In this document: piece after piece, positions 1 to 63,497 of the stretch
Numbering within the stretch: position 1 is the first letter of the stretch
Layout of the letters: each line of letters starts with the position of its first letter
Assembly: GCF_000003815.2 (NCBI RefSeq)
Contig: NC_049979.1
Span: forward strand, 17,539,117-17,603,116
DNA: 64,000 nucleotides
Direction: 5' to 3'
Source of the DNA: Branchiostoma floridae
Taxonomy: Eukaryota > Chordata > Leptocardii > Amphioxiformes > Branchiostomatidae
The notes under the pieces: generated by a model
The model's input: the letters and a program-made list of their open reading frames with translations, nothing else
What the model was told of the DNA's origin: nothing
The model's database searches: none
Program-made: the position numbers and the translations under genes

Positions 1-171
1 ATGTCTCAGGAACACAAGCCCGACTTGAAGGAGTACGCCGCCATGGGGTACTCAGGCTACAACTCCATGTCCCCGACAGGTGTGCCGAAAACGACCATGT
101 CCATGGACAGCATGGGGACGGACTATTACCAAGGGTATGTTCCCCAGCATTCCCAACCTTCGTCTCTATAA
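1..171 (+). CDS. foxA: FoxA (HNF3-type forkhead factor), C-terminal end only
   Basis: The frame from base 1 is open for 56 codons and stops at TAA 169-171. The peptide carries the two conserved tail motifs of FoxA proteins: HKPDLKEY followed by MGYSGYNSMSP (vertebrate FoxA has HKMDLKAYEQ and GYGSPMPG), then DYYQGYVPQ close to the end (vertebrate SYYQGVY). These form the C-terminal transactivation region that follows the forkhead DNA-binding domain; the forkhead itself lies left of the window. FoxA is a pioneer transcription factor of endoderm, notochord and pharynx. The ATG at base 1 is an internal methionine, not the start. A GTATGT at 135-140 resembles a splice donor, but reading through it gives the expected FoxA ending, so this is the last exon. 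Confident from the tail motifs and from the neighbours (Pax1/9, SLC25A21, EGLN). Confidence 0.87.
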   Translation: MSQEHKPDLKEYAAMGYSGYNSMSPTGVPKTTMSMDSMGTDYYQGYVPQHSQPSSL

Positions 172-9555: not shown

Positions 9556-10389
9556 TTACTTCATCTGAGCGGACTGCTTCATCAGTAACAGGTCGTCTGA
9601 CTGTGCTCTGCGGAGACCTTCCAGCCAGGAGGTGCACTTCATGTCCAGCTCCGGGGAGCTCATTCTGGAGTCCGTCTCCTCACTCGCCGACGCGACCTCC
9701 GAGTCGACACTCTTACATCTAGTTGTAGTGTCCTCTCCGTTCCTTTGGAACGTTTTCCAGTTTGTACCATGCCCCAGTGGCGGCAGGATCACTCCGTGGT
9801 TTGTGCTTTCTGAATGCGGTGCATACAACCTGTTAGCATTATTGTCACTGTTATTCCTATCTTTTTTCGCTTTCTTGTTTACAGGGGGTGACTTTATACT
9901 GTCCATGTGATTCACTTGTGCGGTGTTTACCGTAAGCTGGGGTAGTTTTGTCTGCTTGCCATGCTTAAAATCGCAAGGGACTTCAGACACACCCCTACCT
10001 TCTTTTGAGTCCATGTTCATGATTTCCGGGAACATTCTATTTGGTGAATCCACATCCGGCCAACTGTGCCAGCTGTTTATCTTCTTTCTCCGACGAGGAC
10101 TTCGACTCTTCTTCCTGACTTGCTTGGCAGTCGGTTTTGTGTTGTCTGAATCTTCCTGTGTTTCCACCTCCGAGCTCTTCCCACCGTTGATAAAGTCGGA
10201 ATCTTTCCTGGTTATCCCTGGCAGCCTGGCGGTCGGTCGTGAATGAGAGTCTGTAGCCACTGGTGAACCCGACGGCGCTCCAGGCGACGATATAGATTCT
10301 GGGTTAAGGTTTTGACGTTTGTGTGGCGGTGACGATGGCAGACTTTTCTGTCCGTTCATCTGGATGGCAGGTAAGAATCCGTGCGACAT
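9556..10389 (-). CDS. Unrecognised basic, serine-rich protein (277 aa), single exon or last exon
   Basis: An open frame runs from ATG at 10389 to TAA at 9556-9558. An in-frame TAG lies about 25 bases upstream of the ATG, so the ATG is the likely start. I do not recognise a domain. Visible features are a strongly basic stretch RKKSRSPRRRKK (about residues 92-103) and KKAKKDR (about 172-178), both nuclear-localisation-like; a tryptophan-containing patch just after the first basic stretch (NSWHSWPDVDSP); many SP/TP sites; and a C-terminal segment SWLEGLRRAQSDDLLLMKQ that could form an amphipathic helix. Most of the rest looks disordered. No other frame here is of comparable length. Upstream sequence has a good acceptor (TTGCCCGCAG, near 10532) that would fit a spliced 5' leader. 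It lies between FoxA and EGLN, where other deuterostomes carry cluster bystanders such as MIPOL1, but no coiled-coil character supports that identity. It could be a lineage-restricted nuclear protein. Confidence 0.6.
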   Translation of the reverse strand: MSHGFLPAIQMNGQKSLPSSPPHKRQNLNPESISSPGAPSGSPVATDSHSRPTARLPGITRKDSDFINGGKSSEVETQEDSDNTKPTAKQVRKKSRSPRRRKKINSWHSWPDVDSPNRMFPEIMNMDSKEGRGVSEVPCDFKHGKQTKLPQLTVNTAQVNHMDSIKSPPVNKKAKKDRNNSDNNANRLYAPHSESTNHGVILPPLGHGTNWKTFQRNGEDTTTRCKSVDSEVASASEETDSRMSSPELDMKCTSWLEGLRRAQSDDLLLMKQSAQMK

Positions 10390-21853: not shown

Positions 21854-24397
<2,544 letters not shown>

Positions 24398-24442
24398 TTT
24401 TTGGACACTGAAAAGTAACCTTTGACATAAGCGAAACCATTG

Positions 24443-24472
24443 ATTGGTGGGGGGCGGAGTTCACTATATAAA
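24443..24472 (+). promoter_or_regulatory. CCAAT / GC-box / TATA cluster (divergent promoter candidate)
   Basis: ATTGG (inverted CCAAT, 24443-24447), GGGGCGG (24451-24457) and TATATAAA (24465-24472) lie in canonical order for rightward transcription, 46-75 bases upstream of the EGLN ATG on the other strand. The TATA box points toward SLC25A21, whose first coding exon has an acceptor-like site just upstream. CCAAT and GC boxes work in both directions and could also serve EGLN. Confidence 0.5.
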
Positions 24473-25247
24473 TTTGGTTCATTTTCCCTATTTTCCCCAC
24501 CAAAATTTGTATGATTTTGTAAGATAAATGCATGATTAGTATGTATGATAAATATTGGTCTCTTTTGGCTAAACTTTAATTCTTTAATCTAGGGACGAAC
24601 TATTAACCTCCCCACAGGAAGTGCATGGCATCACCTAATTGCTAATACGTCATAGCGCGGTGGGATCGGGCCAAGTGAGTTGTCTCCACAAATTCTCCAA
24701 AAGTTTTGTATTTCACCCTCTCTATTACTTGATGTTTGTCTTACTGATGTTGACAGCCTTTGTGTGGTTTTATTATAAAGCTTGCGTGTGCTTGATGGTA
24801 GGTTCTGTTCGGGCCATGCGGACTTGGTCTAAATCTTGATCCAAGCTTCACAGCCGGGCCCTGGAATCAACGTTCAATGTGAACTTTTACCCACAGCATT
24901 ATGGATCAGGATTCGTCAGTTCACCACTAACTGTTCAAATACTAGTTTAATGAGAAACAGAAGAGTGGAAAACAGTTCAAAGTCCCTTTTCTTATATACT
25001 AGTAGTCTCTTCAAAACGCCCCAGTTAAATATATTTAGGAGAGGTTGACAACCGGTCTCACAGGTTGGCTAATAACGTTAATTACGTTATCTCTGTCAAT
25101 AGTGCACAAATGTCATACCCTATAGAAAAAGGTCGGGCAGTTCAGAAGTGCAGATATTCATTTGAAACATATTTATGTCCCTTTCATAGCTAATAAGTTT
25201 AGCTCAGGAACATCATAAATTCATACCATTTACATCTATCATCATCG

Positions 25248-25579
25248 TCAGGGTTGGACAAGTTTTCTAAAATTCACTTGTCCTATTGGGCAAGTAACGT
25301 TACATAGGAAATTTACTTGCCCGAAATCAATTTTCACTTACCCAAAATTTAGATGACTTTTTTATATGCATTTTCACTTCCGGCGATAGAATTCTTTTAT
25401 TATTAGCGTTAGCTGACCATTGTTTGATGCCATGACTGAAAAGTTTCAAGCATGTCAAAATCTTGCTCATTGAAAAATCTTACTTGCTCGATTGGGCAAC
25501 TCGGGTAGGACTTGAGCTTTCCCGATTGGCTATTTCACATGCCCGGGACAATAGGGCTAGTGGACTTGTCCAACCCTGA
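25248..25579. mobile_element. MITE with 16-base terminal inverted repeats
   Basis: The ends TCAGGGTTGGACAAGT and ACTTGTCCAACCCTGA are exact reverse complements. A second, imperfect inverted pair inside (around 25287 and 25540: cttgtcctattgggcaagt against gcccgggacaatagggctagt) supports a fold-back structure. There is no coding capacity. Confidence 0.8.
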
Positions 25580-26098
25580 GGGTTGTGATGAACTAGGGTT
25601 ATGGGTGACAGGATCAGGATCATGACTATTCACAGTATTATCAAGGACTAGTCAACTGTCAGGTATATGCTCTGATTGGTTGTCTTCCTTGGCCTCAGAT
25701 TGGTAGAGCACGGAAATTGCAGGTAGTTTATACTTTCAGGATGCACATGTATAACTATAAGGAATATGCTTGTTATCATCACCGTCATCATTGATAAGGA
25801 GGTTCACGATTCTAAGTACACGGTCAAAGGTGCAAGGTCAAAGGTGAAGGCAGCAGACCTGTTAACAGTTTTTGTATTGACCATGCTTTATACATGCCGA
25901 TATATGTATATGGACTCTATTGTTGGGTTTTCATAACAAAGCCCAGACATGTTTTGTGTACGTCTCTGGGTCTCTCACCTTTGACCTGCACATATGTAGT
26001 TAGGTCTGTGAATGGGTTTATATATCAATTTTATACATATGAACTTTACACATGTACAGTATTTGCCAAATATTTGTTGCCCTTCAGCTGTTCCAGAA

Positions 26099-26165
26099 AT
26101 GATGTCCAAACAACAGCCAGCATGGAAGCAGCCTGTACAGCAGTTCATGGCAGGGGGCTCGGCAG
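26099..26165 (+). CDS. slc25a21: SLC25A21 exon 1 (coding)
   Basis: Encodes MMSKQQPAWKQPVQQF and the start of the first carrier helix (MAGGSAG), ending GCAG|GTCAGA in phase 1. The weak context cannot decide between the two tandem ATGs. Confidence 0.9.
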
Positions 26166-35100: not shown

Positions 35101-38100
35101 GACAAAATGCCCATTTAAGAGCACCTTTCAACACCCTGAAGCCCAGAACAAGCCGCTCGCTCTCCCCAGAGGAAAGTCCAGTTTGCTTGCATTGGTTGTA
35201 CCGCAGGTAGGGAAAACATGGCCTCAGCAGGCTGAGGTAATTAAAAGGCACTCTACAGCAGAGAGCGGGTGGAAGCATGGTCCCTGCCAGCTCCGGGATG
35301 TTTTGAAGTCAGCGCTGAGGTGGCAGCGGGTCAGGGAGTGTGTGAACTTCTCAGGTGTCTGTGGGGTGGAGCAGGACACTTTTCCTCACAGAACAGACTT
35401 AAACTTACAACTGATGTCTTCCAGGCTTACAGGTTAGCTGGCTGTGTGGGCATCCTCACCAATAAATTCTCCACTCATTTTCTCTCACATTGCCAGCAAA
35501 TGTGGTGTCAGGAGCAGTTGTTTATGAAGGCGACCTCCGCAGTCTGTCTGGTAACCTCCCCGCTCTCAGACCTGACCTTCGCCGTAACCTGTTGGCATAT
35601 CTGTTTCGACATTCAAACATCCTCCATTTAGAAACAGGAAGGTTTAGGTGACATCATGCCCCCTGTTCATTCTCACAGATGGAGATACCAGGGAAAGAAG
35701 ACCACTGTGGTATCTGGTTTGCATGAATAAGCATTACAGTGTTTGTCCGTGGGTTTATGAGTGGATATTGGCTATAAGTCTACAGCTTTGGCAGATCCAA
35801 TGTACAAAATGTATCTGTTCAGAACATGTGGCAAATGCAGCTGCACCCAGGGGAGGGATGCAGTAAGAAGAGGCCTGTCAACAGTTAACAAGCTAGATTC
35901 TGTTACTGGCTACATGTGTAGAACAGACAACACAGTGAAAGATTCCTGCATGCAGAAGGCTTTGATCTTGTGTGGTAATGGGCCACACCAAGTTAGACAC
36001 GGGTATAAACATTGTCAACTCTGGTATTTTGGGCCACATATCCACAGAGGTGTTGTGAACTGTTGTTTGGTGTTCACCAACTTTTTCAGGGTCTAGACAG
36101 GTTCAAAAATGGCTTGAAATACCTAAGTTTTACACATTATGTTAAAATTGTGATTCCCTCCAAGATTTGACTAAAAAAGGATTTGTTTAGTGCATTATAA
36201 CATTAATTAAAGTGGTTAGTTTTTTAAAAATCGTATGATGTTGAATCACTTACAGAGCTCAGAACTGATTGTTACAAATGAAAACCTTTAGACCAATCCT
36301 ACATTGAGTTACAACAAGTCACTATGTAGTTCTGTTATTGATTTAAAGTTGGTGTTTGAAATTATCTCTTACAGATGCCAAGTATTTTTGGATTGTACAT
36401 TCATACTGGAGGTCAGACCTCCTCCAAAATTAGAAAGAAAACTTGCCAATTTCTAGGATGGCCTACTGCTAAAATGTCTGTGACCCTCCCCGAAGTAGAG
36501 CTGACCCGGCACTTTCTGTGGTAGAACAGAGAACACTCCGTAAATGACTGCAGATTTTTTGGGATTGCTCTAATCCTGAGTTCAAGTGAACTGCACTGGA
36601 TGAGCGAGAATGGCTTCAATACTGCTTGTCTTTCTCTGATGAAAGAAAGTGTGCTGTCTCTACCTTCACTTTCAAAGTGGTCTACGAAGAGATATGGTAG
36701 ATTTATCCATGCAGTTCTGTCCGCCTGCAAAAATGTTTTTCTACTTGAAAAGTTAAATCACTTTGACAGGTAACTTTCTATTGCCTGCAAATCTCTTATA
36801 CAATGGAAACTGTTTCTATCATTTTGAAACTTGGACAACTCACTAGTACAAGTAGTTTTTCTTTCAGCAGTACCAAGAAAGAGTCATCTTAAACACATTG
36901 CTGTCCAAACCACAGCCATACTTCTATCCTGTATGCCTCTCGCCAAAGATGTCCCTATCCATCTTCTATTAGACTGAGACTCAGTTACCCTGTCATCATT
37001 ACCCTCCTATGATAACTAATGAAATCAATCCTCTATTTGCTCCACAAAAATGTTTTCCTTATCTATAGGCATGTCCATGACCACCTGGGATAAACGCCTG
37101 CATTGAAGCCCCGATGTCAACAATATGCAGTGCGAAACGGATAATGTGAAACAGGACAAAAGGGATCAGCACAGTTAGACAGAGCTAACCCCGCTGTGTG
37201 TCCTGAATAAGTCACAACGATCTCCAACGGACGTCGTAAAGTTACTTATCTCTTGTGATAAAACAAAAGTCCTGCTGATTCATCAATGCGTTTGAAAGAC
37301 GACAAGCCTTTATCAGGCAGGAGTATTATTGGGTTGTTATTGATTAGCTGTTCATTACTCCTGCTATCAATGAGTCGCTGTTCACCTGTTGACGAGTGAT
37401 GGATGTCGGGTGGCAGGTACCTATTGGAGCCACAGGTAACCCTACACCTGAGAAACAAGGCTTACCGTAATGGATTTCAGGACCCAAGCCTTGTTTACCT
37501 GTCGGGAGAATACCTGCGCCGCCTGCTTTTACACCGCAGACAATGCCCCAACCCCCCGAGAAAACAGCTTCCTTTACGTTTCCTTTCTGACTGGAGGACA
37601 ATGTGTTATGACCCCCACCTACTTGTCGCTTTGTCCGTTGAGTGACAATACATAACCGTAGCTCCACCCACAGCTCGCGCCCTCACACGAATAGGTCCAG
37701 GTCCATGTGGGTCACAATGCAGGGTCATAACTTCCCTGCTGGCATTCATCTGCCGTTGTTTCTGATACTGCTCAATACTTGTTACTATTGCTAAATATAC
37801 CTCAGCCAGGAGTCGACTGTGTGTGCTTTGAGAAGCTACTGCCAGCCAAGATCTCACGCAACTCACTCCCATGTGTATCTATAAGGGACATCATAGCTCA
37901 GTATTTACTCAACAGTGTGCATGTGTGTTACCCTGACTTCCAAATACGTTATCATCTCAGGTGCATTTATTTTGTCTTCTCAAAAGAACATCTGTCCTGT
38001 ACCAAAACAGTTGTTTTTTCACAGTCTTTGCAAAGTCATCTTCCTTCCCTTGCAGTTTTTAGTTTCATATCAAGACTTAAGAAAACTGTGTCAAAAGAGC

Positions 38101-41100
38101 TGCAATTGCAAAAATATCTTTGATCACCTGAATATTGAGAAATTGGTCTTATATATCTGAAAATGTTGATGATCACATCACTGTTTAGCCCTTTGTTGCA
38201 ACAAAGTGTCAGAGACTTGTAATTGTAATCAAAGCATCTCTGTCACAAGGGTTTTGGAGTGGCCAACACCTGCACAGTGGATGGACTCAATGCAAACTTA
38301 GAGATGTCCCTCAAACAAAGCAGTGTTTTCCCTGCACATATCTCCTGGAGACTATGGGTGTCAATTACCCATTTCCATCTCCGGAACAATGTTTTATCAG
38401 CTACCTCTGATAGATGCTAATCTGCCATTGTGCCAACACTGGCCAATATTGTTATTAGTAACCTGCCCTTAGAGTCCATTTCCCTTTGATGATGTCATGT
38501 TTGTGTTGATAATCTTTTTTCAAAAAGGAAATTGTATCATCCTGTCTTGATGATAAAAAATTGTCTAGGATATCTGATCATCTTGTGCAAATAGCTTACA
38601 GGATACAACTTGCAGAGGAATGTGGAGCATGGGCTAGAATTAATGATGACAATACACAACTGAATATCCATGAAATCTATGAAATAAGAATTTTCCAGTC
38701 AAGAGTAGAATATTTTGCTCAATTAGTAAAGGAGAAATCTGGCAGAGGACATTGCAGTCTTAAACCTTACCAATATTACTTGCAGTCAAAAAATCCTAAA
38801 CACATAGTTCACCTGTGCATTGTTGAAGAAAATTCATTGAAGAAGTCTGTCCGACTACCCATGTGTAAATCATAAACCTTGAGATTTATTGTAATTGTAT
38901 CAGATTCTGTTGTCTTCAAAACATGTAATGGATGAACACCATCTCTAAGGCAGTTCTTGTAAAAATAACAGTAGTCATTGTAATGTGAACTGCTGTGACA
39001 AAATGATCTACAGGTGCAATCAGATTGATTGTATTTCACAAGAAACCCTACCTACTGTCTTGTCAGCACCTATTGGCCATTATTGAATGACAAGAAACAG
39101 ATAATTGACTTGGTGATATGGATGTGGCATGACTGTTGAATTTGATGCTCCCATAAGCTTGGTCACCTTTCCTGTTTTATCTCCACACAGGATGCTCAAA
39201 CTGGTTGTGACACCTGTCATTTGCTGATCCAGGGGGGGTCTGGGCTCAGCCTGCCATTCTTCCGCCCTTCCTAAAACCCCAAGACAAATCTGGGCAGCAC
39301 CTGCATTGTGATGATTTTGCCAATCGTAGATAATCGCTCCTTCACACTTTGCTGCGGAGTACAACATATTTACACCCCAAACAACACATCCTTTCAGACT
39401 AGTGGCTGTCCCTATTGACAGACTGATCAGGGTTAATGGTTAGGGGTGTTTCACCCCAAAGGTGTGGGGGATGATCTATGTGGTCTGAAGCTAACTCCGT
39501 GCACGATTAACGTAAGCTGTGCTCTTGTGTCCGCCTGCAGGCCCCTATCCTTCTACAAGGGAATCCTTCCACCAATCCTGGCAGAGACACCCAAGCGAGC
39601 CGTCAAGGTAAGCCTTACCTGCTTCTCTGACAAAGACTGGTGCCACCCCCATACTTCCCCTTAATGCCCCATTAATGCTCTAATCCCCCTGATTTATGGA
39701 CAGCACTTGCTCTCAGGTCCTCTTCTGCTGGACCACACCAAACACTACAAGTGCTTGAGAGGTACTCAGCATCCCTGATATGTTATCTCCTCATCAGCAC
39801 AAGGAGGCTGAAGAACCCCTCCCCTGACTGACAACCTCCAACAGGAGACAAACATTCCTTCCCCTGGAGACGTAAATGGACACACAAAACACCTGCTATT
39901 CTTGGCATCTACCTGTTCAAACACCGGAAACTAAGTACAAAATCAAATGCTCTCAGATTGTTTGACTTTTGAGTCACTGGTCACCTCTTGACAGCTACTT
40001 GCACTGGTTCCCCACCCTCTGCCATAACAACTGCGTATTGAAAAGTATATGTTTCAGGATGTCTTATTTTGGTTTTACATTGTTGTAATTAACCCCATTG
40101 GTTTCATCACATCTCCATAATTTCAATGTTAGACAGAAATACATCATTTTGCATTAGGTAAACTGTGTTATTTGCAAATGAACTGGACCTGGCCTGTTGC
40201 TTTTAGGAATGAATCATTTATCTCAGAACATAAGCAAGGAGGTACCTCTCTAACCTCTTAAACATAAGTAGCCTTCCTATAGTCATTTTCATCAAAAGAG
40301 TTGTTTTTGAAAGGAAATGCGCCTGGTATTTTACCATTATGTTGGTTGACTGCCCTGGGATGTTTTTCTAACAACTAATGCTTAGACAAACTTTATCCCT
40401 TTTTTTACTGTTGTAAATCATGTCCAATGGCTGACGTAAATACCTCCTACCTACACAATTGTGTGAGTCAACTTAGACTCACTCAGTCTTAGCTGTGTGT
40501 GCATACAAGTCAATTCTCCCAAACACATAGTGCCCTGCTGGACAGCCACCCCAATGTCTATACATCCTCAATATACCGGCACATATGTGCATATATGTCT
40601 CAATGTGCATAGGTCACAATGAGCATACATCCCAATGTACATATGTCCCCTAATGTACATGTGTGGCCTTGTACCAGTCATGACCAATGTGTTGGGAGAT
40701 GTCAGTGTATACCCCATGCACTGGTGCAGTAGCTGCTTTCCTAGTTGTGGGTCACATGTTGTGCAAATTTTGGCAGTGAATGGAAGGCTTGGTGTCACTA
40801 CACCCTGTCTTGTAAATCACCCATTTCTAATGCTTTTGTGCAGTTTGTACCACAACTCAATTTTCTGCAACTTCAAACAACCATGGTTTCATGCACTGTT
40901 GTGTGTACACATGTTAAAACATCATGCCGTTAACTTTAGTCCACCTGCTATGCAAATGATGCTCCTTGCAGCCAGCGACTTGTGTTGAGGTATTTGGTAA
41001 TCTCCATGCTCCTTTGCGACTGTCATGTAAATCATTCCTGTTTTTACAGTTCTTCACCTTTGAGAGATACAAGACTCTCTTCTCTTTTGGGTCCCCCACA

Positions 41101-44100
41101 CCATCAGCTATGGTAAGTATTGTCTACTTAAATTATTCCAGAGTTTTTAGAGAGCTATCTTGACATCATTACTTCTAAGAGTTTCTTAAGAATATTTCAG
41201 GTTGTCTGCCTTACTGTCATAGGTACACATCACTTAAGTACTATAAATATTATTTTTGACCGGAAGTCTAAATTTGCCTACTTGAGAACATTGACATAGC
41301 TCTTTGTTTAACTCTTCAAATAGTTCCACAAAGAGAGTCGCCCGATATTTAGTAGAATTCCTACAATGAAATAGGTTGCAAACCACACTTGAGTGTGTAG
41401 AACTACACGATTGAGTATTGTTCTATGTGCACCTGTTATGTAAGGTTTGTGCTGATCGATCCACCCCGTTACTATGGAGATAACAACCTGAATCTGTCAG
41501 GTGAGGGCAGGCCCTCCTGTGACCCACTGCTGTCTATGACACACACCCTTATTGTTCCTCCAGTCTCCAGGAGTCGCTTATGATGGATGTCATCTATTGT
41601 TCAGCATGCCCATGTTTGTTTTCTTTCTCAGGCATTCACCCTGGCTGGTTTGTGCTCAGGTTTAACCGAGGCTGTGATTATTAATCCCTTCGAAGTTGTC
41701 AAGGTCAAATTACAAGCCCAGAGAATCGCACTATCTCAGGTGAGTACTGATGTAAGATTGAGAGAGACAGCGATAAGTCGGGAAGGGCTATAACATATAT
41801 CAGCTCACCGGTACTGTGACAGACAGTCCCTTGTTTACCAAAACAACATTTACGAGTAAGAGGGCAGGCAAACCTGTGGGTCACTCATGTTCTTTACAAT
41901 TGCCCCCCAAAGCCTTGAACATTTCTGGAAGATTGAGTTACCCGTATTATTGAACAGACCTGGGTTTTGTCTTACAGTTTTGTGCTCGGTGTTGGTTGGT
42001 CACATTCCTAACCCTCTACACATGCTTCCACCTATGCTCAATTTGTTGCAAATAAGAATGGGAGGTGCAGGTCTAAATGGGTTGTAATGTCAGCGAGGTA
42101 ACATGAGCCACTTTTCTTTGTACCAAGTCGCCATTCTAGTATGACTGACTTGTTGATTGGGAGGGGGATCAATCCCTTTTTGAGGCCAAATTCTGCAAAA
42201 CAAGGCCACCCTGACAACCTTGTGCTATTCTACTGTATATATTAAGAACTAGAGGGCCTTACAGTGCCAAGATTCAGTCAAAGGAAAGGTGTTTACAAAT
42301 TTCACAGTTTCTGCATGTTTAGAGGCAGGCTGTTTGCCTGGAAAGTCATGGGCGTAAAGGGTTTACAAAAATAAAGTGTAACAAGCTTTGGAGAGGACAC
42401 AAACCGTAGGAAACCCAGTCAGTGAGAGTCACGTCTTTTTTAGTCTGTTTGGATGGCAGGGGTCACGTTTGACCAGAGAAAATGAATGGGTTTGGGGAAG
42501 TCGTAGTGTCGCTGCCTGTGGTATCCTTCAGAAACCTTTATACCCTCCTCAAATGTGAGTTGATGTTACACTGTTTGGGACATAATAATTAACAGAAGTA
42601 TGTAGCAGTGAATGGTTGCTAGGGTATTTTCCGTATCAAGTGTCTGTCACACTGCTTGCTCGAAAAAATATTTTGTCACTGTTGACGCTCTTCCACCAGC
42701 GTGTCTTTGACTTAAGTTTCAAAAGAAGTTTCCGACTTCCTGCTATTTTCCACCCTTTTTTCACAGCAACCTTCCACCATACGTACAGCGCAAGAAATCG
42801 TAAGAACAGATGGGCTCGGACTAAGAGGTCTCAACAAAGGGTTGACATCCACCTTGGGTCGTCATGGAGTCTTCAACATGATTTACTTTGGATTCTACCA
42901 TAACGTGAAGAACCTTATACCAGAGAGCAAGGTACATACATGGTTCTATCATTTGTCTTGGAATCCATCTGAATCATCTGATATTTTCCCTTGATGCCAC
43001 ATATCTTGATGCCAGCTTGGCCAGCGAGACGCCCCGCCAAGGTATGCTCATATTGTTGTCATCAAACGCAAGTGAATGAGTTTCTACAGCATGTCCTGGG
43101 GATGGGGAGCCTTTGAGGGGAGGTGAACCGGGAGAATTGGTGGGAAGGTAACACCACCCGTCCCCTGTCTATCTCTCTCCTGTGTGCATCACGCCCGGTA
43201 TGCTCAGTGAGAACGGAACACAGAACACCGGTTCAGACTGACACCTCACTCCGCTGGCACGCAACGCTGCCTGTGATGGGGTCAGGGGTGACTTCTTGTG
43301 CCTGGGCATGTGGAACCCCACATGGCGTCAACGCATGACGCTTCCATCCAAGTCAATTAACTACTTTTGTGATAAACCCACTGGCTGAAAATGTGAAAGT
43401 TTAAGAAGTGCAAGCGTTTAGGAATCTTATTACTGTTAAGTTTAGATGGAGTATATGATAAATGAAATGCCCTACCTGGGTATTCAATACAATGACATTT
43501 TAAAGTTGAAATGTCATTGTATTGAATACCTAGGTAGGGCATATAGCGTGTTAGTACAACCATATAACTGTACTCCCATCTCAGTTTTACCCTTCTACAT
43601 GCATTGTGTACTCTTCTCTGATGTCCTACGTCAAGTCAATGTCCATTTAGCAAAGCTGCTTGTGTGGAATTAACTGCTATCTATGACCAGATTGGTCAGG
43701 CTTCAGTTCTTTGATCTGATATGCATGAAGGCATGGAAATCTGGACAGAAACAGTTACATTGATTAGCCAACTCTTGCAAGAACATTTCTTTTTGTCAGC
43801 AACATGAAGAATGCCAAGCAGCTACTTCTTTTTATTTGTTTACTTGTTTGTTTTTTCATTGATAAAAGTTTTTGCCTCATCCTCACAGGACCCGAAACTG
43901 GACTTCCTGAGAAAATTTGGTATAGGTCTGACTGCTGGAACCCTGGGTTCCTGTGTCAATATTCCATTTGATGTTGCTAAGAGCCGTATCCAGGGGCCGC
44001 AGCCTGTCCCAGGGGAGATCAAGTACCGAACCTGCTTTGCAACGATAGCAACAGTTTACAAGGAGGAGGGGTGAGGACAGGTCATATATTCATGCAACAG

Positions 44101-44915
44101 GCGAAGTAGTGAGAATCAATTACAGCTGACATGTCTTATAAGGAATATTTTGGTAACCAGAAAAGATGATTCATGCTGTTACTTATTCTTAACTTATTTA
44201 GAATATTATGCAATGACCCTACCCCCCTGCAGTACATGTACCTTTGTGTACATGTATATAGGTAATACGCATCTGTATTTACACCATGCCTCTGTAAGCA
44301 AGGTCTTAACTTGCTCATGTACCACAACACGCAATTACACTGTTGACCAAACAGAAATCTGTGGTTGTTGTGGTTTTCTTTTGTATTTGTATTACAGAGG
44401 AACATCTACCTTTGAGCACAGTGTGGGTTCATTAACTAGCTACATGGCTCCATTTGGCCTGAACTGATAGCATACAGTGCTAAGGATGACAGAAATTGTA
44501 GTTTCACATTCTTTTCCTGACATATCTTTTCTATCTCATGCAGGTACCTAGCATTGTACAAGGGACTTCTTCCAAAGATCATGAGATTAGGGCCAGGTAA
44601 GGCTGTTGATATTGCTACATCTTTAGTTTCGTTCTTGGACACATGACGATCTTTTAAGTACACTTGTCATAAGATCTTTTCAAAGATCTTATGAAATACA
44701 AGTGATTTGGTGGATATTTACAGCACAGTAGTATATGTGTCAATGTAGATGGCACATGTGATATTTTTGCAAAAGCAAGCAAGGAAATACCTTTTCAAAA
44801 TTGATTCATCGACTTTTGTTGTTTATTCACTAATTTGTTAACTTCTTTTAAAGGTGGTGCCATTATGCTGTTAGTGTATGAGCATGTCTACGACTGGTTG
44901 CATCACCACTGGTGA
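26099..44915 (+). CDS. slc25a21: SLC25A21, mitochondrial 2-oxodicarboxylate carrier, ten coding exons
   Basis: Inner-mitochondrial-membrane carrier exchanging 2-oxoadipate and related C5-C7 oxodicarboxylates for 2-oxoglutarate in lysine and tryptophan breakdown. Coding exons: 26099-26165, 32774-32822, 33063-33146, 39541-39607, 41050-41112, 41632-41739, 42767-42931, 43889-44070, 44544-44596, 44854-44915. All have GT/AG borders and matching phases and sum to 900 bases: 299 codons plus stop, the length of the human protein. The three carrier signatures are present: PLDLVK (residues 32-37), PFEVVK (129-134) and PFDVAK (227-232), each followed by basic residues. Family-specific segments include YKGILPPILAETPKRAVK, GRHGVFNM, IQGPQPVPGEIKYRTCF and LPKIMRLGPGGA. 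Two in-frame ATGs begin the protein. An acceptor-like ttgcccttcag just upstream suggests a non-coding first exon to the left. Introns 1 and 3 exceed 6 kb. The 3' end converges on Pax1/9. Confidence 0.96.
26326..26433. mobile_element. Fold-back / MITE-like element
   Basis: Arms 26326-26350 and 26409-26433 (outer sequence TAGCCTGGAGTC) are reverse complements at 23 of 25 positions. The core TAGCCTGGAG recurs at 34147, which points to a dispersed family. Confidence 0.7.
27900..27965. promoter_or_regulatory. Cluster of five CACCTG/CAGGTG E-boxes
   Basis: CACCTG at 27900 and 27916 and CAGGTG at 27923, 27944 and 27960: five identical-class E-boxes in 66 bases inside SLC25A21 intron 1. CACCTG is bound by Snail/Zeb repressors and some E-protein dimers. 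Enhancer role is inferred from the clustering only. Confidence 0.4.
28137..28210. repeat. Degenerate 20-22 base repeats with C/EBP-like core
   Basis: The units agattgcccaatgatatcag, ggattgctcagtgatcttt and agattgctcagtgattgct follow one another. Each contains a TTGC half-site and the first is close to a full C/EBP palindrome. Confidence 0.45.
32163..32255 (+). mobile_element. 3' tail of a non-LTR retroelement
   Basis: gggctggtccttaataatagc leads to a short T tract and ends in the tandem tail aaatcaaatcaaatc, a typical 3' microsatellite end of LINE-type insertions. No coding part remains. The 5' boundary is unclear. Confidence 0.45.
32774..32822 (+). CDS. slc25a21: SLC25A21 exon 2: first carrier signature
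   Basis: A 49-base exon after TTTGCAG encoding LVEVSIMHPLDLVKTR; donor AG|GTACTG, phase 2. Confidence 0.94.
32823..33062. other. SLC25A21 intron 2 (240 bases)
   Basis: A short intron. The first part is T-rich and carries an open frame that extends from exon 2 by chance. Nothing else is visible. Confidence 0.8.
33063..33146 (+). CDS. slc25a21: SLC25A21 exon 3: first matrix loop
   Basis: 84 bases encoding FQIQRGPDDPQRYKSLADCF and TMWRNEG; donor GG|GTAGGT. GC-rich compared with the flanking introns. Confidence 0.94.
33147..39540. other. SLC25A21 intron 3 (6.4 kb)
   Basis: No exon was seen. A copy of the TAGCCTGGAG repeat lies at 34147. A complex, GC-richer stretch at about 35030-35430 with few stop codons and a TAATTA homeobox core (about 35239) is a candidate conserved element. 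The remainder is A/T-rich and featureless to me. Confidence 0.6.
39541..39607 (+). CDS. slc25a21: SLC25A21 exon 4
   Basis: 67 bases encoding PLSFYKGILPPILAETPK and RAVK, nearly identical to the vertebrate segment; acceptor CCTGCAG, donor AAG|GTAAGC. Confidence 0.95.
39608..41049. other. SLC25A21 intron 4
   Basis: Non-coding. It includes a degenerate tandem tract at about 40566-40672 built from catatgtgc / caatgtacat units. Confidence 0.7.
40566..40672. repeat. Degenerate tandem repeat (about 16-18 base units)
   Basis: Repeating variations of 'catatgt..caatgtgcat' (acatatgtgcatatatgtct, caatgtgcataggtca, caatgagcatacatcc, caatgtacatatgtcc). Confidence 0.55.
41050..41112 (+). CDS. slc25a21: SLC25A21 exon 5
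   Basis: 21 codons, FFTFERYKTLFSFGSPTPSA then M; acceptor TTTTTACAG, donor ATG|GTAAGT, phase 0. Confidence 0.94.
41632..41739 (+). CDS. slc25a21: SLC25A21 exon 6: second carrier signature
   Basis: 36 codons including LCSGLTEAVIINPFEVVKVK; acceptor TTCTCAG, donor CAG|GTGAGT. Confidence 0.95.
41740..42766. other. SLC25A21 intron 6
   Basis: About 1 kb without coding signal or clear repeats. Confidence 0.75.
42767..42931 (+). CDS. slc25a21: SLC25A21 exon 7
   Basis: 55 codons including LRGLNKGLTSTLGRHGVFNM and YFGFYHNVKNLIPESK; acceptor TTCACAG, donor AAG|GTACAT. Confidence 0.95.
42932..43888. other. SLC25A21 intron 7
   Basis: Non-coding. It contains the long hairpin 43467-43542. Confidence 0.75.
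43467..43542. repeat. 34-base near-perfect hairpin
   Basis: Arms 43467-43500 (atgccctacctgggtattca...) and 43509-43542 are reverse complements with one mismatch and an eight-base loop. It lies in SLC25A21 intron 7. Confidence 0.8.
43889..44070 (+). CDS. slc25a21: SLC25A21 exon 8: third carrier signature
   Basis: 182 bases including FLRKFGIGLTAGTLGS, NIPFDVAKSRIQGPQPVPGE and TVYKEEG; acceptor CCTCACAG, donor GG|GTGAGG, phase 2. Confidence 0.95.
44544..44596 (+). CDS. slc25a21: SLC25A21 exon 9
   Basis: 53 bases encoding YLALYKGLLPKIMRLGP; acceptor CATGCAG, donor CAG|GTAAGG, phase 1. Confidence 0.94.
44661..44704. repeat. Hairpin in SLC25A21 intron 9
   Basis: cacttgtcataagatctttt is followed by aaagatcttatgaaatacaagtg. 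The inner 12 bases pair perfectly; the outer cacttg/caagtg pairs across a bulge. Confidence 0.6.
44854..44915 (+). CDS. slc25a21: SLC25A21 exon 10: C-terminus
   Basis: Encodes GGAIMLLVYEHVYDWLHHHW and stops at TGA 44913-44915; acceptor TTTTAAAG. It matches the vertebrate ending (GGAVMLLVYEYTYSWL). Confidence 0.95.
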
Positions 44916-47690
44916 CCGGTGAGATCTGTCGTCATACCCACAAGTCTTCACACAGCAAAGGAATCTTCCTAAGATAATGGATACATACCAGTTCTGATGG
45001 ACAGCGTGCAATGTCCGTGTCTATCATATCAGTGCTGTTTTAGAAAGAAACACCGATCGTTTGCTCTGTTTTCAATAAACATCACGCAGGGCTTGGTTAA
45101 CCAGTGAGCAGCAAAATGATGGTATGAGCAATGAAAATAATTCTGACAATACTTTTACACACGTCCCCACAGGAGGTCATTGTGAGACTGTTGCACACTG
45201 CACACCACCAGTGACACAGCACTTACTCTTCCCTCTACAAGGTCATACCAAAACAGGTATTGACTGGTAAAGAAAAATATGGGGTGACTTATCTTCTTTA
45301 GGAAAGCTTCTGAAGATTGAAATTTGTTATCGTTTTCTTCATTTCACAAGGTGATAGGTGTGTTCTAGATACCAGACAAGGGAAGTTGGAGTATGGATTT
45401 GTATTATGAATTATCTAAGGCCAAATTACACAGATTATAATAGTAATGTCAGGAGCTGCCTTGCAAATTGCCATGAACAAGTATGAGTACACAAAACAGA
45501 AAAAAAAAGTAATGGTAAAAACTAGATAGATCTCAATAAAAGTTGCTTTTGCATTTAAGAAATTTTTTAGCCTAAGTGCCATAATAGATGAACTTGGAGT
45601 AGACGTTTTGTCATATACATATATGCTTCTGGGCTGGGCAAATGTAGTATTAGATCTGTGCCACTCTGTATGTTCTATTGACAATATTTTTGTTTACAAT
45701 ATTGATATGAATCATTTGCAGGCAACATTCCACAGTGTGTGACAAATGTTGACACCTCCCTTTATTTAGTGTAAAGGGTTGGGCAAACCTGCTAAGTCTG
45801 AGAGAAAAGAGAGATCAAGAGAGCCTTTCTTGCCACTGCTAGTATTGTGCAATTTGATTATTAAGTCATTTTTGGTGGTGGTAATAAAAGTGATGATATC
45901 TTTTATATGTTCATAGAATTTTGTGTAAATGGGAAGGTATAAATGCAGTTGTTGGATTTTTATGATGAAAGTTCTGCTATTTTGCAAATATAAGATGTAT
46001 TCAATGGAAATATAATGTGGAAAGGGAATGTATGTCCCATTAGTAAATTCTGAGTATAACCCATTTTCCCAAACATTATGGAAAAAAACACTTCTGAAAT
46101 TGAAACCATGCACTAAGAAAATTCAAACGCAAATTCCTGTTGATGTTATTGGACAAACCTTCTATTGCATACCTGGGAATGTTGCTAGTCACATGTAGTG
46201 CATTCAGTTGTTCGGTGATGCTATTGTCATTGATTTGTAATGAAATATATTTTTATGGACCATTTTAGAATGTACATTATTCCATTCTATCATTGATGAG
46301 CAATGAAGAGTTCTGTTTGCATCTTCATTAGCTACCTCAAATCGTATTTTATCACAAATGACAGATTTTACAGTATTTTGCAAATAAAAATGAAACTACC
46401 TAGCAACATTACTGTTTTGTTGTTTATGTATCAGAATGTTTTCATCTATTATTACGACATATATTTCTGTTTTAAACTGAAGATGAAGACTTTGTTTAAT
46501 TTGTTACATCTGTATTTCCAATCATTGTGTTAGTCTCCCTGGCATATGTACTACACGTAACAGGGTATATCTATTTGGAATCGTAATATTATCATTGAAC
46601 TAACCAAACTTTTAAAACATTTTTCATGATACGACATTCCCCTGGCACTGGAGTGTTTCTCTGCTTTGCTTTAGATCCAAGTATTATTGAAGGCCGATGT
46701 GCCAGGTCTACGTTTAGGAGCCAGTAAATGTAACAATTTGTATGCCAACCTATCAAAATTGGCTTGCAACCTATGGAGACATTTATCATTGTACAGGTGT
46801 AATTTCAGCTTCCTACAATGATTATAAGCTAGTCAGATCTAGAGGAACTAATCTGTGACACATGGGTGTGGTCAATTTGAAATCAACTTAGGCGCCCATA
46901 AAAAATCTGAACAACAAATTGAGAAGAGTCTCAAAAATGTATCTGCCTTTCTTTACCATTGTGTCTAATTTCATTTGATGAAAAATGGGATTATAAAACC
47001 AATGACAATACTTTTTTACTCCCTCCGTACCTGAAGAGCGTTATATGTGTTCATAGCTTGCACCTGCGCTGCTAGTTTTGGCAAACTTACAAAATTCTAT
47101 CTACCCTGATGCTGTTGGTCCATATTTTCTACACGCTGGTGTCTGCTTTTGTTGTCAATGTTGATAGGGTATTTGAAGGGACTAGATAGGCAAGGATTGT
47201 CATGTCACGTTTTTCGTACTCTTTCATGTGTGTCCGTCCCCGATCTGTCTGCATTAACCGTACTTTGTGCCGTGGAAATACATGTAAGTAGTAGTTGTTT
47301 CCCGCATTACTATCACCGTCAAGGGTACCTCATGCTTGCCGGTGTGCTCGGGTTGCTCTTGCCGTGACCCGTAATAAGGGATAGGGCTGAATAGAACCAG
47401 GTTAAACATGGAATGGAGGTGAGAAGCTTTAGGCCGATTTGGACCACTTTGGAAGCATATTTGCCTGAAGGATTACTGTACAGATGGGTCTTTCATGGGC
47501 TGGCTTATGGTGGTGGAGTCTAAGCGAACCTGTAAACAGCGCCTTTGTGAAAGAACGAGATATCTGGGCGGTTTCATCAAATGTCGCCCCTCTGTCATAC
47601 ACATTCATTGAAGACCCCCTTGCCTCATACTCTCAGCTAGAAAGTAAACACAAAAGCTAACGAATAAAGCAACAGGAAATTCGGTATGTC
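44916..47690. other. SLC25A21 3' UTR and convergent intergenic region
   Basis: The region between the SLC25A21 stop and the presumed Pax1/9 transcript end. It is A/T-rich with no supported gene. Open frames at 45415-46113 (minus) and 46303-46533 (plus) are rich in Ile, Phe and Tyr as expected of A/T-rich non-coding DNA. Confidence 0.65.
45074..45079 (+). terminator. slc25a21: SLC25A21 polyadenylation signal AATAAA
   Basis: The first AATAAA after the stop codon, 159 bases downstream, in ttttcaataaacatcacg. A later AATAAA at 46383 could serve a longer form. Confidence 0.6.
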
Positions 47691-47702
47691 AAAATATTAC
47701 CT

Positions 47703-49062: not shown

Positions 49063-52000
49063 CTGGAACGGAATGGAAAAGGGAGGAAGAAATAAGAACG
49101 AGAAAAGACCGCAGTTTCTTCATATAGCAAACTAGCTCGACATGCATGTGGCTACTGTCTAAGCGGTTAGCAACAATAAATCTGGAGATGAGAAGGCGTA
49201 GTCTTACCGTACAAACCTTCTTATTGAACGAGGCATGTACAGAGGAAAGCGATGGCAGGTTACATGCTCATGCGAGTACCCTACAGTATAGATCAGTATA
49301 GACTGACCAATTACATTGACGACTAGTCTACACAGCAGTTTGGCATGCTAATATATTAAAGAATAAAGCTGATTCATTCAGGCCAACGTTAGGGTAAGGC
49401 AGCGGTTGATGTTAGTACCATTGACATGCTTCATTAAAGCGAACGCCATGCAGAAATGAGCGTCATTCCATTCCATTTGCACTATATCGTGCAAAACGTG
49501 TGGTCATGCACATAAGAAATGGTGGATAGATTGAGAGAAGCAATATCGAGGGCCACAGCAGTTTGCAACCAAAAAGTTTCTAATTTAATTGTTTGTCCCA
49601 TATTATCGTTATTCCTATAAATGGGTTACCGGTACATTATTCTCAGAAATATCAAGCCCCATACTGCTTTTATTACGTACTATAACTTAGTGCTTACTAG
49701 AGGAATGACTACCAAATGCATTAACGTTAGATTGCGACGCTTTTGGCATCTTATTATAATCATTGTTACATATATGTGATTCTTACCGTGTGACCTGTAC
49801 TTAGCCCTGTAAATTCTACTTCATTCATAATTACAAATCCAGTACCTCACGGACTGAACTTGAACATAAGAGATTGTAAACCTCCTGCTCACCTAAACCA
49901 GTTTGTGCGGCGGTGACGGGTTTGAAGGGTAGCGGTGCAGGGATGCTGATGCCCCCCTCCGAAGTGGTGACTGGAGCCCCAGCGGACGGGAACCTCGGTT
50001 GTTGCCACCCGGTAGTGGGTCCCACGGTAGTAGGGGATTGATGGTACGGCATATACGCCATCGTTTGAGGGGGAGGGGGGCCCGGGTAGGGTGCAGAGAC
50101 GAAACTACTGACTGCTGGTAGTGAGCTCTGTGAGAATAGAAACAATTGTATGTTGTTAAAATTTTCGTATGTGATATCATACTGATAGCTGTGTGCACAG
50201 TTAATTACTCACTGCCATGTAGCAGACTAGCTTAGGATTCCAGACAGATAGCTAGTGAAAACTCTGACGAGTAGACCTATTCTTCTAAGAAGTAACTTGT
50301 ACCAACTCCCTTTCGCCGATGATTAAACGCTTTACACAAGTAAAGATTTGTTAAACTTTCCTCTGTTATATTCCGTTCATATTGCCCGCCGGTTTCTGCT
50401 GCTACGCCCCCTTATGACGTCACAGAGGCACAGGGTCTGTTTTGTCCGTGCCTTGCTGTCGGACACCATGCGGAGGGACCTATCATTTCTAACCGCTTAA
50501 TTTTCCCCGGTAATGTGCATTAGATATGCCTGAACAAACAATGAACCGGATGATGAAAAAGGGGAAGATTAGAGGAGTTTTGTCTTTACATCTTTAATTG
50601 CTTGTTCTTCTTCTTTTTCATTTTGTTTTGATACATTGTACCATTTAGACTGAGTTTTGAAGAAAACTGTATCTTTTTCGTGCAAAACTCACCTGAGACA
50701 CATCTGGGTACTTGACTTTCTCTGTCTGTCCCTGCATTTGGTTCATGTGATTCAGGCCGTAGCCCTCCCCCATCTGCGTCTGATACCTTGCACTTTCATT
50801 GGAGATTGCACCTGAAACTGGACCTGCAAAACAAGAGAGAAGAAATTATAGAGCAATTTGCCGGGGGGACTTTGGGCACTCCAAATAGAGTACGGAAAGG
50901 ACTTTGAAGAGAGCTATCAAGTCGTGCTGCGATGTAGGCGTTAATGTGAAGCAGCTGAAGTTTAAAGCTCGGTCCAACCCACAGGAGCGATCAGGACGAG
51001 GGGATGAGACGGCAGCGCGCCTCGGGTGTCATCGCGCGCCCGGAGGGGATGGGTCGGTTAGGATTTCAGGCGGTACCGACTTCTCCCGCCCGTCTATGGT
51101 GTGGCTTGGGTGAACATCGTGCCCATTGATTATTTACATGTTTATTTTGAAAGTAAGACGACACAGACTCGTGTCGGCCGAACGAGGCTTTAAACGTTCG
51201 GCGGTGCCGGAGAGAGACGGGCTGGCAGAGCCCGGAGCACGCGTGCTCATGCTGCGCGCTGCGGAAGAATGCGCCTTGATGCCCAGCTGTCTTGAATATG
51301 TTTTTCTGTTCTCACTATAGGAAATTGTGTGGGTTTTGGCACTCAGAATGGCGCTCATATCATTTTTAATATTACTCACAGCGTCACCCTGAATGGCCTA
51401 TAACCCTTACCGCACACCAACATAAAACGTCTTCCATCTGGAACGCGAACGTAACGAAAAAGAGGGAAATTTTGTTACACCGACAACGACCCACAGGGTC
51501 CATGTCATCGTCTGGTGTAAATAAACACAAAGCGATCGTCATTCTGGGATGATTTATCATGTACAGGTTATTTATCTACGGCGGGAAAAGCTGGCGAAGG
51601 AGCACGTTTGAGAGGTTGCTCGCACTAGCAGCGGGACATGAAGAAAGTGGCGACCTTTGCCTGTTGAGTCTACTGTCGGCAACGTGCCGATGCCGCAAAC
51701 GTTTAGCATTGAGCAGTTCGGAAAGCCCCTTTGGGCCTGGTCAATTTGACAGGCGTCCACTCGCGACACAGAAGGCACGCAGAACCAGGGGTGGGACGCC
51801 GGCAAATCAAAATGTCGTTTAAAAAGTCTGAAGGCGCCGGTCATATCTTGCCAATTTTGTTGGCTTCCAGCAGGGCTCGTCAATTTCTGGCAGTTTTTTG
51901 ATCTTCGGGTAATTTGCTTTTGCATACGACAGAAAAAAGAAGAACGAGGAACATAGATGCCCCTCGGGATAAACTACATACAGTGTGAGCATAGGGCGGC

Positions 52001-61000: not shown

Positions 61001-63497
61001 GTCCGACGGATAAACATTTACAACCAACATGCTAACGTACACAGAATTGCTCAATTGACCGCACTGCCACAAATTGCCCTGAATTTGATAAGATAATTAT
61101 GTAGGCCCATTGCCGTATGTTTGTGCCCCAGTACAGTGTCTCGTGCTGGGTCGAGCATATTCCATGTTTGATTCTACATTCTGTGCTTTCGTGTGACAAG
61201 TTGTTTCAGTGCTGCTACATGCGCCGGCTACCGTGGGTGGTTCTCTGTTCTGAGTCACCACGGTGGGATACGCTTCAACATGGTTTTTGCTCCTCGCGGC
61301 TTGTGGTTGTATGCAAGGCTCGGCTCTGGTCTATATAAGCCACAGGTTATATTGCAGGATTTCAAGATGATTTCTATATCTCTAATTGTACAGTATAGTT
61401 TAATTTTCAGACATTTATTCTTATAACTAACAACGTTCTACAGAAAATATCACTGTCGAATCTTACNNNNNNNNNNNNNNNNNNNNNNNNNNNNNNNNNN
61501 NNNNNNNNNNNNNNNNNNNNNNNNNNNNNNNNNNNNNNNNNNNNNNNNNNNNNNNNNNNNNNNNNNTTAGCGTTGATGGGCACGCCTGGTCGTGGGAAGC
61601 CCAGAATGTCACTGACAGTGTGTGGGGACGGCCAGTGCCGCATGTGCATGGGGATCTGGCTCTGGTTGGGCACCCCGGGGGCCCCGGGAGCCGGCGCGGG
61701 AGGACCCACCGGGTAGGTGTAGATGGGGTTGTAGAGTGGCCTGTGTTGCTCAGGTTTGACGGGATGACCGTAGGGCGAGTCGGGGAGCTGCGTCGTGTTG
61801 CCGATCTTGTTGCGCAGGATCCGCGAGATGGACGAGACCGAGGGCACGTTGTACTTGTCACACACGCCCTCGGCCAGTAACCTGTCCCGGATCTCCCAAG
61901 CGAAGATGCCTGGGTCCAAGGTTTTGTACTTCTTGATGGCCTTCACCACTTCAGGTGTGGTGACGCGAGGTTTGCTGCCGCCGATGGCGCCAGGCAGGAT
62001 GGACCCCGTCTCGTTGTAGCGGGCCAAGATCTTGGAGACGCAGCCGTGGGACACCCTGAGCTGGCGGCTGATGTCGCACGGCCTGATGCCGAGCTGAGCC
62101 AGCTCCACGATCCGCAGGCGGATGGCGTTGGGTAGCGGTCTGCCGTTCACAAACACTCCGCCGAGCTGGTTCACCTCCCCAAATGTTTGCTCTGGTGGAG
62201 AAACGACGAACACATCAGCCATTATTTTCAGATTATCAACACCTTTTCTCAAGCAGGTAGCGCACTATAGATCTCTATCTACAAAATCCATGATCCCACC
62301 ACCCCTGGCTGGGAATAGAAAAGTTAGACCTGACGGAGCAGGTGGCGGTAGCTAACGGTCAGGGCTGGATAACGGGCCGTACTCCCCATTCCTTCAAATT
62401 CGGGAAGTTTCGAGTTGACCAGGCCTGCCTGATAGACTGTTGGCAGGCGCTCGTATCTAGGACAGTCCGTGGTTTTGCTGTTATCCCAGGGTGGGGGCAA
62501 GCCAAATTTGTACAATTACTCTACGGATTAGGGACAAATAGGTAGACATCTCTCCTTCCTAAGCTGACAGAAGCCCGCATGACTTGAGTGACAAAGAAAC
62601 TGCCACACAGATCCAGGGAAGCCATAAGAGTGCTGGTGTACATACAGAATCAACAGCACTTCATAACACACGCATGGACGTGGCTTCATCACTCAGGGGG
62701 TGTAATTGGGCATATACTAGTATCTGGTACTCATATATGAGACGTGTGGGGGGAAATATGTCGGGTTAAGTATGGCGATTAGATTAATTACCATAGAGAG
62801 CAGAGATCGTCGTTGATTCATATCAGTGTAGAGACGCGATGTGCGAGGAGTCCATGTGGCCGTGTTGTTTGTACACAACATGGTAGCAGACCTCCCTGAT
62901 ACTACTGCAACTACACACTGGCTGGGACCAAAATACGCCACATGACGGTTTTATTTTGCTTCAGTCCAACAACTGCTCCCAGAAATGCGCTTTAGGAGAC
63001 AGGGGCAATTTGGCTATATTTAACTTTAAATGATGTTAGTTGAGAACCAATTTCGCTGCCATCATAATCGCTGGGATCATGGCCCCTGGGATCACCATGC
63101 TGTAGCTTATACGAGTTTGTATATCGTTATGATTTTATCTTCATGTAAAAGGATATCTTTGTAACAGCAAGGAATGGTGCTAAGTTTTCTACGATTCCAC
63201 CCCGACCCTAATTCTGGCCGAAAGTCCCGAGGTCTGCCACATATGGAAGCAATAAGTTCGTTCGTTTAATTCCGGCATGCTTGTGTCTTGTACACACAAA
63301 CTGACGAGACCTACACCCGCGTTCTACCACGTTTTCCCCGCCTTCTCTCCTTCGCCTGACATGTATTTCTCTATGCCTTACACATGGACTTGCCTAGCAT
63401 CATTTCTATAGAGATTACCAAAAATCACTTGTTCATGTTCAACAACTTCTGTCAATGAACCGTGTAAATGGATTTGGAGCTTACCCATATTCATCAT
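49043..63497 (-). CDS. pax1/9: Pax1/9 paired-domain transcription factor, five coding exons (partly in gap)
   Basis: The single amphioxus counterpart of vertebrate Pax1 and Pax9, a nuclear regulator of pharyngeal endoderm. Predicted exons: 63497-63485 (MMNM), 62191 to the gap 61467-61566, 50823-50693, 50127-49893 and 49062-49043. Residues about 8-134 are the paired domain ([20 protein letters not shown] through [11 protein letters not shown]), almost identical to vertebrate Pax1/9. The octapeptide HTVSDILG is at about 195-202. There is no homeodomain, as expected for this Pax group. The C-terminal exons match Pax9 in order: [10 protein letters not shown], then [13 protein letters not shown], a GWQQ segment, PAPLPFKP and a short tail ending VTDRSS (vertebrate VTASAL). 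Phases fit at every visible junction. Exon 2 ends inside the gap. Intron 2 is 10.6 kb and probably regulatory. The gene converges on SLC25A21. Confidence 0.93.
49063..49892. other. Pax1/9 intron 4
   Basis: 830 bases, non-coding apart from the possible read-through tail of exon 4 (49831-49892). Confidence 0.7.
49893..50127 (-). CDS. pax1/9: Pax1/9 exon 4: C-terminal transactivation region
   Basis: 78 codons plus one base, from acceptor TCTCACAG to donor TTTAG|GTGAGC. It encodes [17 protein letters not shown] and later [19 protein letters not shown], collinear with Pax9. If the donor is not used the frame runs on to a stop at 49831-49833, giving an alternative tail. Confidence 0.9.
50128..50692. 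other. Pax1/9 intron 3
   Basis: 565 bases between two well-bounded exons. It includes a GC-richer stretch around 50385-50480 with TGACGTCA (50416-50423), a perfect CRE-type site. Confidence 0.65.
50693..50823 (-). CDS. pax1/9: Pax1/9 exon 3
   Basis: 131 bases between TTTTGCAG and CAG|GTGAGT, entered in phase 2, the only fully open frame (another stops within nine codons). It encodes [19 protein letters not shown] and ends [10 protein letters not shown], corresponding to the EQEAKYGQ end of the Pax9 exon. Confidence 0.85.
50824..61466. other. Pax1/9 intron 2 (10.6 kb)
   Basis: No exon was supported. GC-rich patches at about 50930-51300, 55790-56060 and 57690-58000 stand out from the A/T-rich background and are candidate regulatory DNA or alternative exons. 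A hairpin with TAATTA core lies at 58906-58943. The remaining open frames are short and without family resemblance. Confidence 0.6.
58906..58943. repeat. Small hairpin with TAATTA core
   Basis: agaagacggctaatt and aattagtcgtcctct pair at 13 of 15 positions around an eight-base loop. Confidence 0.45.
61467..61566. other. Assembly gap (100 N)
   Basis: Exactly 100 Ns, usually a placeholder for unknown length. It removes the 3' end of Pax1/9 exon 2. Confidence 0.99.
61567..62191 (-). CDS. pax1/9: Pax1/9 exon 2: paired domain and octapeptide (3' end in gap)
   Basis: Entered at 62191 after acceptor TTTCTCCACCAG, giving [12 protein letters not shown] as in vertebrate Pax1 ([13 protein letters not shown]). 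It contains the whole paired domain, a Pro-rich linker and HTVSDILG. The exon runs into the gap; right after the gap the sequence reads GTAAGA, a fitting donor at 61466-61465. The GC-rich third positions contrast with the A/T-rich introns. Confidence 0.96.
62192..63484. other. Pax1/9 intron 1 (predicted)
   Basis: 1.3 kb between the predicted start exon and the paired-domain exon. No other coding signal was seen. If exon 1 is wrong, translation could instead start at the in-frame ATG 62222 directly upstream of the paired domain. Confidence 0.5.
63485..63497 (-). CDS. pax1/9: Pax1/9 exon 1: 13 coding bases (MMNM + G)
   Basis: ATGATGAATATGG|GTAAGC: a donor in phase 1 that exactly completes the GAG codon of exon 2, so the protein would start MMNMEQTFGEV. 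Vertebrate Pax1/9 genes also separate a short start from the paired-domain exon at this point. This is the only such site noticed upstream of exon 2 within the window. Confidence 0.6.

Follow-up and report, generated by a model that had tools for sequence, protein, structure and literature searches.

A rearranged pharyngeal gene cluster in Branchiostoma floridae, with a candidate Pax1/9 enhancer in an SLC25A21 intron

The deuterostome pharyngeal gene cluster has a published ancestral order (xrn2, nkx2.1, nkx2.2, msx, cnga, pax1/9, slc25a21, mipol1, foxa, egln3) that was assembled from three bilaterian microsyntenic blocks, xrn2-nkx2, pax1/9-slc25a21 and mipol1-foxa (PMC11175523). Most orthologues of the cluster lie on one chromosome irrespective of whether microsynteny has been kept (PMC11175523). 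Regulatory elements of Pax1/9 and FoxA have been placed in slc25A21 and mipol1 introns (PMC5882950), and such enhancers in bystander genes may keep the cluster together. In the lancelet B. floridae, the cluster has been described as lying on one scaffold except for the Nkx2.1/Nkx2.2 pair, with about 14 kb between genes (PMC5882950). Here we investigate a 64,000-nucleotide stretch of this genome (the window: positions 17539117-17603116 of contig NC_049979.1, hereafter C1, so that window position 1 is C1:17539117). We consider it probable that the stretch is the central part of the known cluster in rearranged form, that it comprises two regulatory units side by side, and that a CpG-retaining island in SLC25A21 is its best candidate for a Pax1/9 enhancer.

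Genes were identified by Pfam profile search and by tblastn with human protein queries, to which all identities to human proteins refer. The genome searched comprised 513,431,437 bases in 431 contigs (a chromosome-scale B. floridae assembly has 19 chromosomes; PMC12373286), and the analysis also took in sequence flanking the window, 60 kb on its left and 160 kb on its right. Along the contig the order is MIPOL1 (+), FoxA' (-), FoxA (+), EGLN (-), SLC25A21 (+), Pax1/9 (-) and two CNGA-like genes (+). Read from the Pax side it becomes cnga-like, pax1/9, slc25a21, egln, foxa, foxa', mipol1. Compared with the ancestral order in print, we infer one inversion of mipol1-foxa-egln and a head-to-head duplication of FoxA, and it is for this reason that MIPOL1 does not lie between the two transcription factors. 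The break falls between the slc25a21 and mipol1-foxa units, leaving the pax1/9-slc25a21 and mipol1-foxa blocks both intact.

The first-pass annotation of this stretch had proposed a block of FoxA, EGLN, SLC25A21 and Pax1/9 in orientations + - + -, with two transcription factors flanking two housekeeping-type genes. The four genes are present far beyond chance and in those orientations, and as far as tested none of their exons has been assigned to another Fox, Pax or SLC25 member; the block spans 1-62222 of the window rather than reaching 63497. Gene identity and linkage stand, whereas the flanking arrangement is misleading. Of two FoxA genes arranged head to head, the window includes just the tail of one, and MIPOL1, the published bystander of FoxA, lies outside the window, past both FoxA genes. 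Nor are nkx2.1 and nkx2.2 found nearby beyond Pax1/9, where the annotation had proposed testing for them. The best Nkx2.1 match genome-wide is at C1:26579394-26579576 and the second-best match, Nkx2.2-like with 95% identity to NKX2.2, at C1:26633398-26633577, both on this contig, 9 Mb further right. Since this pair is not closely linked to pax1/9, we class the locus as a split or partial cluster. Within C1:17499117-17763116, NK2, MSX and XRN queries gave no match with E <0.05, and a homeobox family search found none among the 150 of 246 candidates that were scored, with no query specific to msxlx.

FoxA enters the window as its last 56 codons and stop (1..171, plus strand), into which the open frame C1:17538046-17539116 runs; the orientation given for FoxA in the first-pass annotation is thus correct, with only the tail of the gene in the window. 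The HNF_C match in 1-171 (E 8.5e-4, 20.5 bits) is below the curated cut-off of 25; part of the domain also lies left of the window. The forkhead itself, at C1:17538394-17538651 (+) and about 0.5 kb from the window, is 88% identical to the FOXA forkhead and is accompanied by the motif FTHPFSISNLMS. We rejected a forkhead inside the window (best listed tblastn match E 3.4) and recovered FoxA from its tail. The second gene, FoxA', is a 489-codon frame on the minus strand (C1:17521313-17522779), head to head with FoxA; a pair of amphioxus FoxA genes has been published as Foxaa and Foxab (PMC11136973). When 17503000-17530000 was compared with 17530000-17550000 for duplicated non-coding DNA around the pair, the matches were limited to the forkhead and a local repeat. 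Elsewhere in the genome, C14:16451228-16509301 carries four forkhead frames of equal score in a 60-kb interval, which may be a local family of recent origin.

MIPOL1 lies on the plus strand as five ordered matches covering residues 220-441 (C1:17483106-17500108), two of them strong (E 1.5e-13 and 7.7e-7). It adjoins FoxA' and is convergent with it. MIPOL1 was also sought inside the window, one candidate being a 277-aa reading frame that lies between FoxA and EGLN; this was rejected, with no match to the human protein better than E 1.3, and the gene was found outside.

SLC25A21 occupies 26099..44917 (+), with 10 exons encoding 299 aa, on the evidence of tblastn, Pfam and in-frame joins. The model is the most like human SLC25A21 of six GT/AG-consistent in-frame joins, its first exon (26099-26165) having been picked from two motif-scan candidates, and it is 70% identical to the human protein over 290 positions. 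Eleven solved chains matched, the best being UCP1 (E 5.7e-24), and none was named SLC25A21. Pax1/9 converges on it from the minus strand. The start codon, paired domain (Pfam E 2.1e-66, 94% identity to PAX9) and octapeptide (HTVSDILGF) are at 61567..62222, and two further exons, 50693..50817 and the C-terminal 49893..50127, are joined in frame and together match the PAX9 C-terminus (E 2.9e-11); exon 49893-50127 has no Pfam family, and the last Pax1/9 exon was not found. With the paired exon to its right and the C-terminal exons to its left, the run of 100 N at 61467..61566 lies inside Pax1/9 and is bridged by it.

CpG observed/expected ratios, computed in 1-kb bins and then per block, are 0.33 for MIPOL1, 0.84 for the 62 kb holding both FoxA genes, the 277-aa frame and EGLN, 0.28 for SLC25A21, and 0.87 for Pax1/9 with its flanks (31 kb), with sharp changes between the blocks. 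The SLC25A21 block (26001..47000) covers the gene and about 2 kb past its stop codon. In the related lancelet B. lanceolatum, methylation is almost entirely a feature of gene bodies, its share being larger where expression is higher and smaller where CpG density is higher (PMC6292497). From this pattern, the footprint of SLC25A21 and MIPOL1 is that expected for broad expression, and EGLN is without it. EGLN, which had been taken for a housekeeping-type gene, is spared the depletion seen in SLC25A21 and MIPOL1 and so does not look like a housekeeping bystander.

We interpret these patterns as probably reflecting two regulatory units side by side. Pax1/9 would be held beside SLC25A21 by enhancers situated in, or acting across, the introns of this neighbour, which is presumed to be broadly expressed and methylated in its gene body; FoxA may be held beside MIPOL1 in the same manner; and EGLN would be a passenger of the FoxA unit. 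The lancelet order can be seen as a natural experiment in which the FoxA-mipol1 part was turned and each factor kept its own bystander, which predicts two separable units, not one.

CpG retention within methylated bystander genes would offer a way to nominate such enhancers from sequence alone. Across SLC25A21 (26.2-46.0 kb), 300-bp bins reach at least 0.6 at three places with exons and at one non-exonic place, 37001-37800. The island delimited there, 37075..37774, lies in intron 3 (33147-39540) and holds 28 CpG in 700 bp where 9.5 are expected, a count reached in none of 2000 simulations; with 400-bp windows, P is 0.017. The best other place in the gene is not significant (P 0.25 and 0.12). 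In zebrafish, the pax9 enhancer Px7 is in the third intron of slc25a21 (PMC3210094), and four B. lanceolatum elements, Pax1/9-126, Pax1/9-157, Foxa-243 and Foxa-251, are active in zebrafish reporter assays, Pax1/9-126 in the pharyngeal arches in 4/4 cases (PMC6292497). We put the island forward as the strongest candidate in this stretch for a Pax1/9 enhancer lying within a bystander, a tentative nomination that is more probably wrong than right. The fullest version of the argument is doubtful: that the methylation footprint marks two regulatory units, that the island is an ancient pharyngeal enhancer of Pax1/9, sharing its intron ordinal with Px7 and kept free of methylation inside a methylated bystander, and that the inversion was tolerated because it broke between the units. 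A cluster of CAGGT-type words in the island (six within 160 bp, at 37384) was dropped as post hoc. In 100 Markov sequences, CAGGT/ACCTG clusters never exceeded five, and an equal cluster of six within 160 bp occurs at 27876.

Several considerations weigh against the picture of two units with an embedded enhancer. CpG depletion is an indirect footprint, from which gene-body methylation would have to be read; it is also present at 17618117-17622116 and over most of 17665117-17763116, and is therefore not special to SLC25A21 and MIPOL1. Of the five exon matches to MIPOL1, three are weak, with E between 0.006 and 0.15. The inversion may already be in print for amphioxus, or may be polarised otherwise, and a run of 102 N at 22607..22708 interrupts the sequence linking the confirmed EGLN exons to the FoxA side. 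The zebrafish branchial-arch element near Px7 is unconserved even with closely related fishes (PMC3210094). Lastly, the island could be a young insertion. A recent transposon, or other young DNA not yet CpG-depleted, would be expected to show the same base composition within a methylated gene body, and as an account of the island only, this is a real if unlikely possibility. No second copy of the island was found in 39 sequences totalling 335,465 bases, which speaks against a transposon, weak though this test is.

Two broader alternatives concern the locus as a whole. The genes may be old neighbours on a slowly rearranging chromosome, their nearness having no regulatory meaning and neither SLC25A21 nor MIPOL1 containing an enhancer that holds anything in place. 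Drift within the chromosome would leave Nkx2.1 and Nkx2.2 still on this contig at a distance of 9 Mb, EGLN and the 277-aa frame sit inside the cluster without known need, and the sharing of a chromosome by most cluster orthologues, whether or not microsynteny is kept (PMC11175523), fits as well. We nevertheless find this improbable, given that pax1/9-slc25a21 and mipol1-foxa are tight pairs across bilaterians (PMC11175523) that both survive rearrangement here, and that enhancer assays have been published for Pax1/9 and Foxa (PMC3210094, PMC6292497). A separate concern is that the placement of egln between foxa and slc25a21, with mipol1 outside, is an assembly error. The N run 22607-22708 is the only one between FoxA' and the left exons of Pax1/9, and its position is precisely where the FoxA side gives way to the confirmed EGLN exons. 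However, MIPOL1 exons keep their order across another N run (17495282, 183 N, inside the MIPOL1 stretch), so that the FoxA piece is fixed in its orientation; the exons left of 22607, in frame and on the same strand, may form the tail of EGLN; the sequence from EGLN to the end of SLC25A21 is without any N; and the B. floridae cluster was described on a single scaffold that does not carry the Nkx pair (PMC5882950). An error here thus seems very unlikely, and we retain the rearranged cluster with two units as the best explanation.

EGLN is a HIF prolyl hydroxylase of the MYND type at 22799..24397 (-), with exons 23747-24397, 23319-23438 and 22799-22935. It combines a MYND finger (Pfam E 5e-12) with a 2OG-Fe(II) prolyl hydroxylase domain spread over the three exons, and its nearest solved chain is EGLN1 (E 1.5e-52). 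The domain has H-x-D...H and the 2OG arginine, residues to which we presume the usual roles. The confirmed exons end before the last strand of the fold, the third having its probable end at 22799 with a donor GT just below, and the end of the fold probably lies in the N run inside or beside the gene. To the left of that run, three minus-strand exons in frame (21854..22606: 22571-22606, 22262-22333 and 21854-21973, with GT/AG joins) may, from their strand and frame, be the EGLN C-terminus; this join is one of five alternatives, and the exons had no Pfam match above cut-off. Since their assignment to EGLN is tentative, they do not provide an independent bridge across the FoxA-EGLN join. Of the two gaps, which the first-pass annotation had named as places where misassembly would count against it, the one within Pax1/9 is bridged by that gene and that at 22607-22708 is not clearly bridged. 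An AC dinucleotide run of 75.5 copies (22098-22248) lies beside the latter. On the other side of EGLN, a divergent intergenic gap of 1.7 kb (24398..26098) separates its start codon (24397, -) from that of SLC25A21 (26099, +); a shared promoter is possible, and the CpG depletion begins at this border.

The 277-aa frame (9556..10389, minus strand, an open frame of 284 codons) may be a gene. It is rich in lysine and serine and has no Pfam family at E 0.1, the best being E 0.71. A GAGT array is present at 5277-5458, and an Rfam search of the window at gathering scores gave no match. Outside the window, MIPOL1 contains CpG islands without a mapped exon near 17492000-17492900 and 17497900-17499800, with more near its 3' border, which unmapped exons could explain. 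To the right, a 4-kb CpG-depleted block (0.26) at C1:17618117-17622116, between Pax1/9 and the CNGA-like genes, is perhaps a small broadly expressed gene. The CNGA-like genes are two sets of plus-strand exons resembling the CNGA pore region only (17640058-17640642 and 17651644-17653067). Further N runs are at 17675270 and 17689569, and a minus-strand frame at C1:17709106-17709708 containing MSWISDFAGKAEALLNKVDQTA resembles golgin-84. Over the 9 kb to the left of nkx2.1, xrn2 gave no match. The homeodomain at C1:16241400-16243500 was considered as a possible msxlx and rejected, being Bsx-like.

The B. floridae pharyngeal cluster is already described (PMC5882950), and the interpretation offered by the first-pass annotation is mostly known. 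What we add is modest: the local order with its inferred inversion and FoxA duplicate, the 9-Mb separation from an Nkx pair that shares the contig, the partition by CpG footprint, and one delimited candidate enhancer.

Compared with known systems, the locus resembles the deuterostome pharyngeal cluster in having pax1/9 and slc25a21 adjacent and convergent, mipol1 beside and convergent with a FoxA, and egln and CNGA-like genes within the linked region. It differs in the inverted mipol1-foxa-egln, in the head-to-head FoxA duplication, in Nkx2.1/2.2 lying 9 Mb off and in that the searches described above found no Msx-like homeodomain nearby; egln falls between foxa and slc25a21 rather than at the cluster end, where the published ancestral order has it. 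As with the zebrafish pax9-slc25a21 enhancers, the candidate is in the third SLC25A21 intron and the Pax gene is convergent, although the likeness to Px7 is one of intron ordinal only and the homology of the third introns is assumed. Like the B. floridae cluster as described in PMC5882950, the locus is one linked block without Nkx2.1/Nkx2.2, with intergenic distances of the order of 14 kb. Unlike in that description, the Nkx pair is here on the same contig, and the two FoxA genes and the gene order are resolved.

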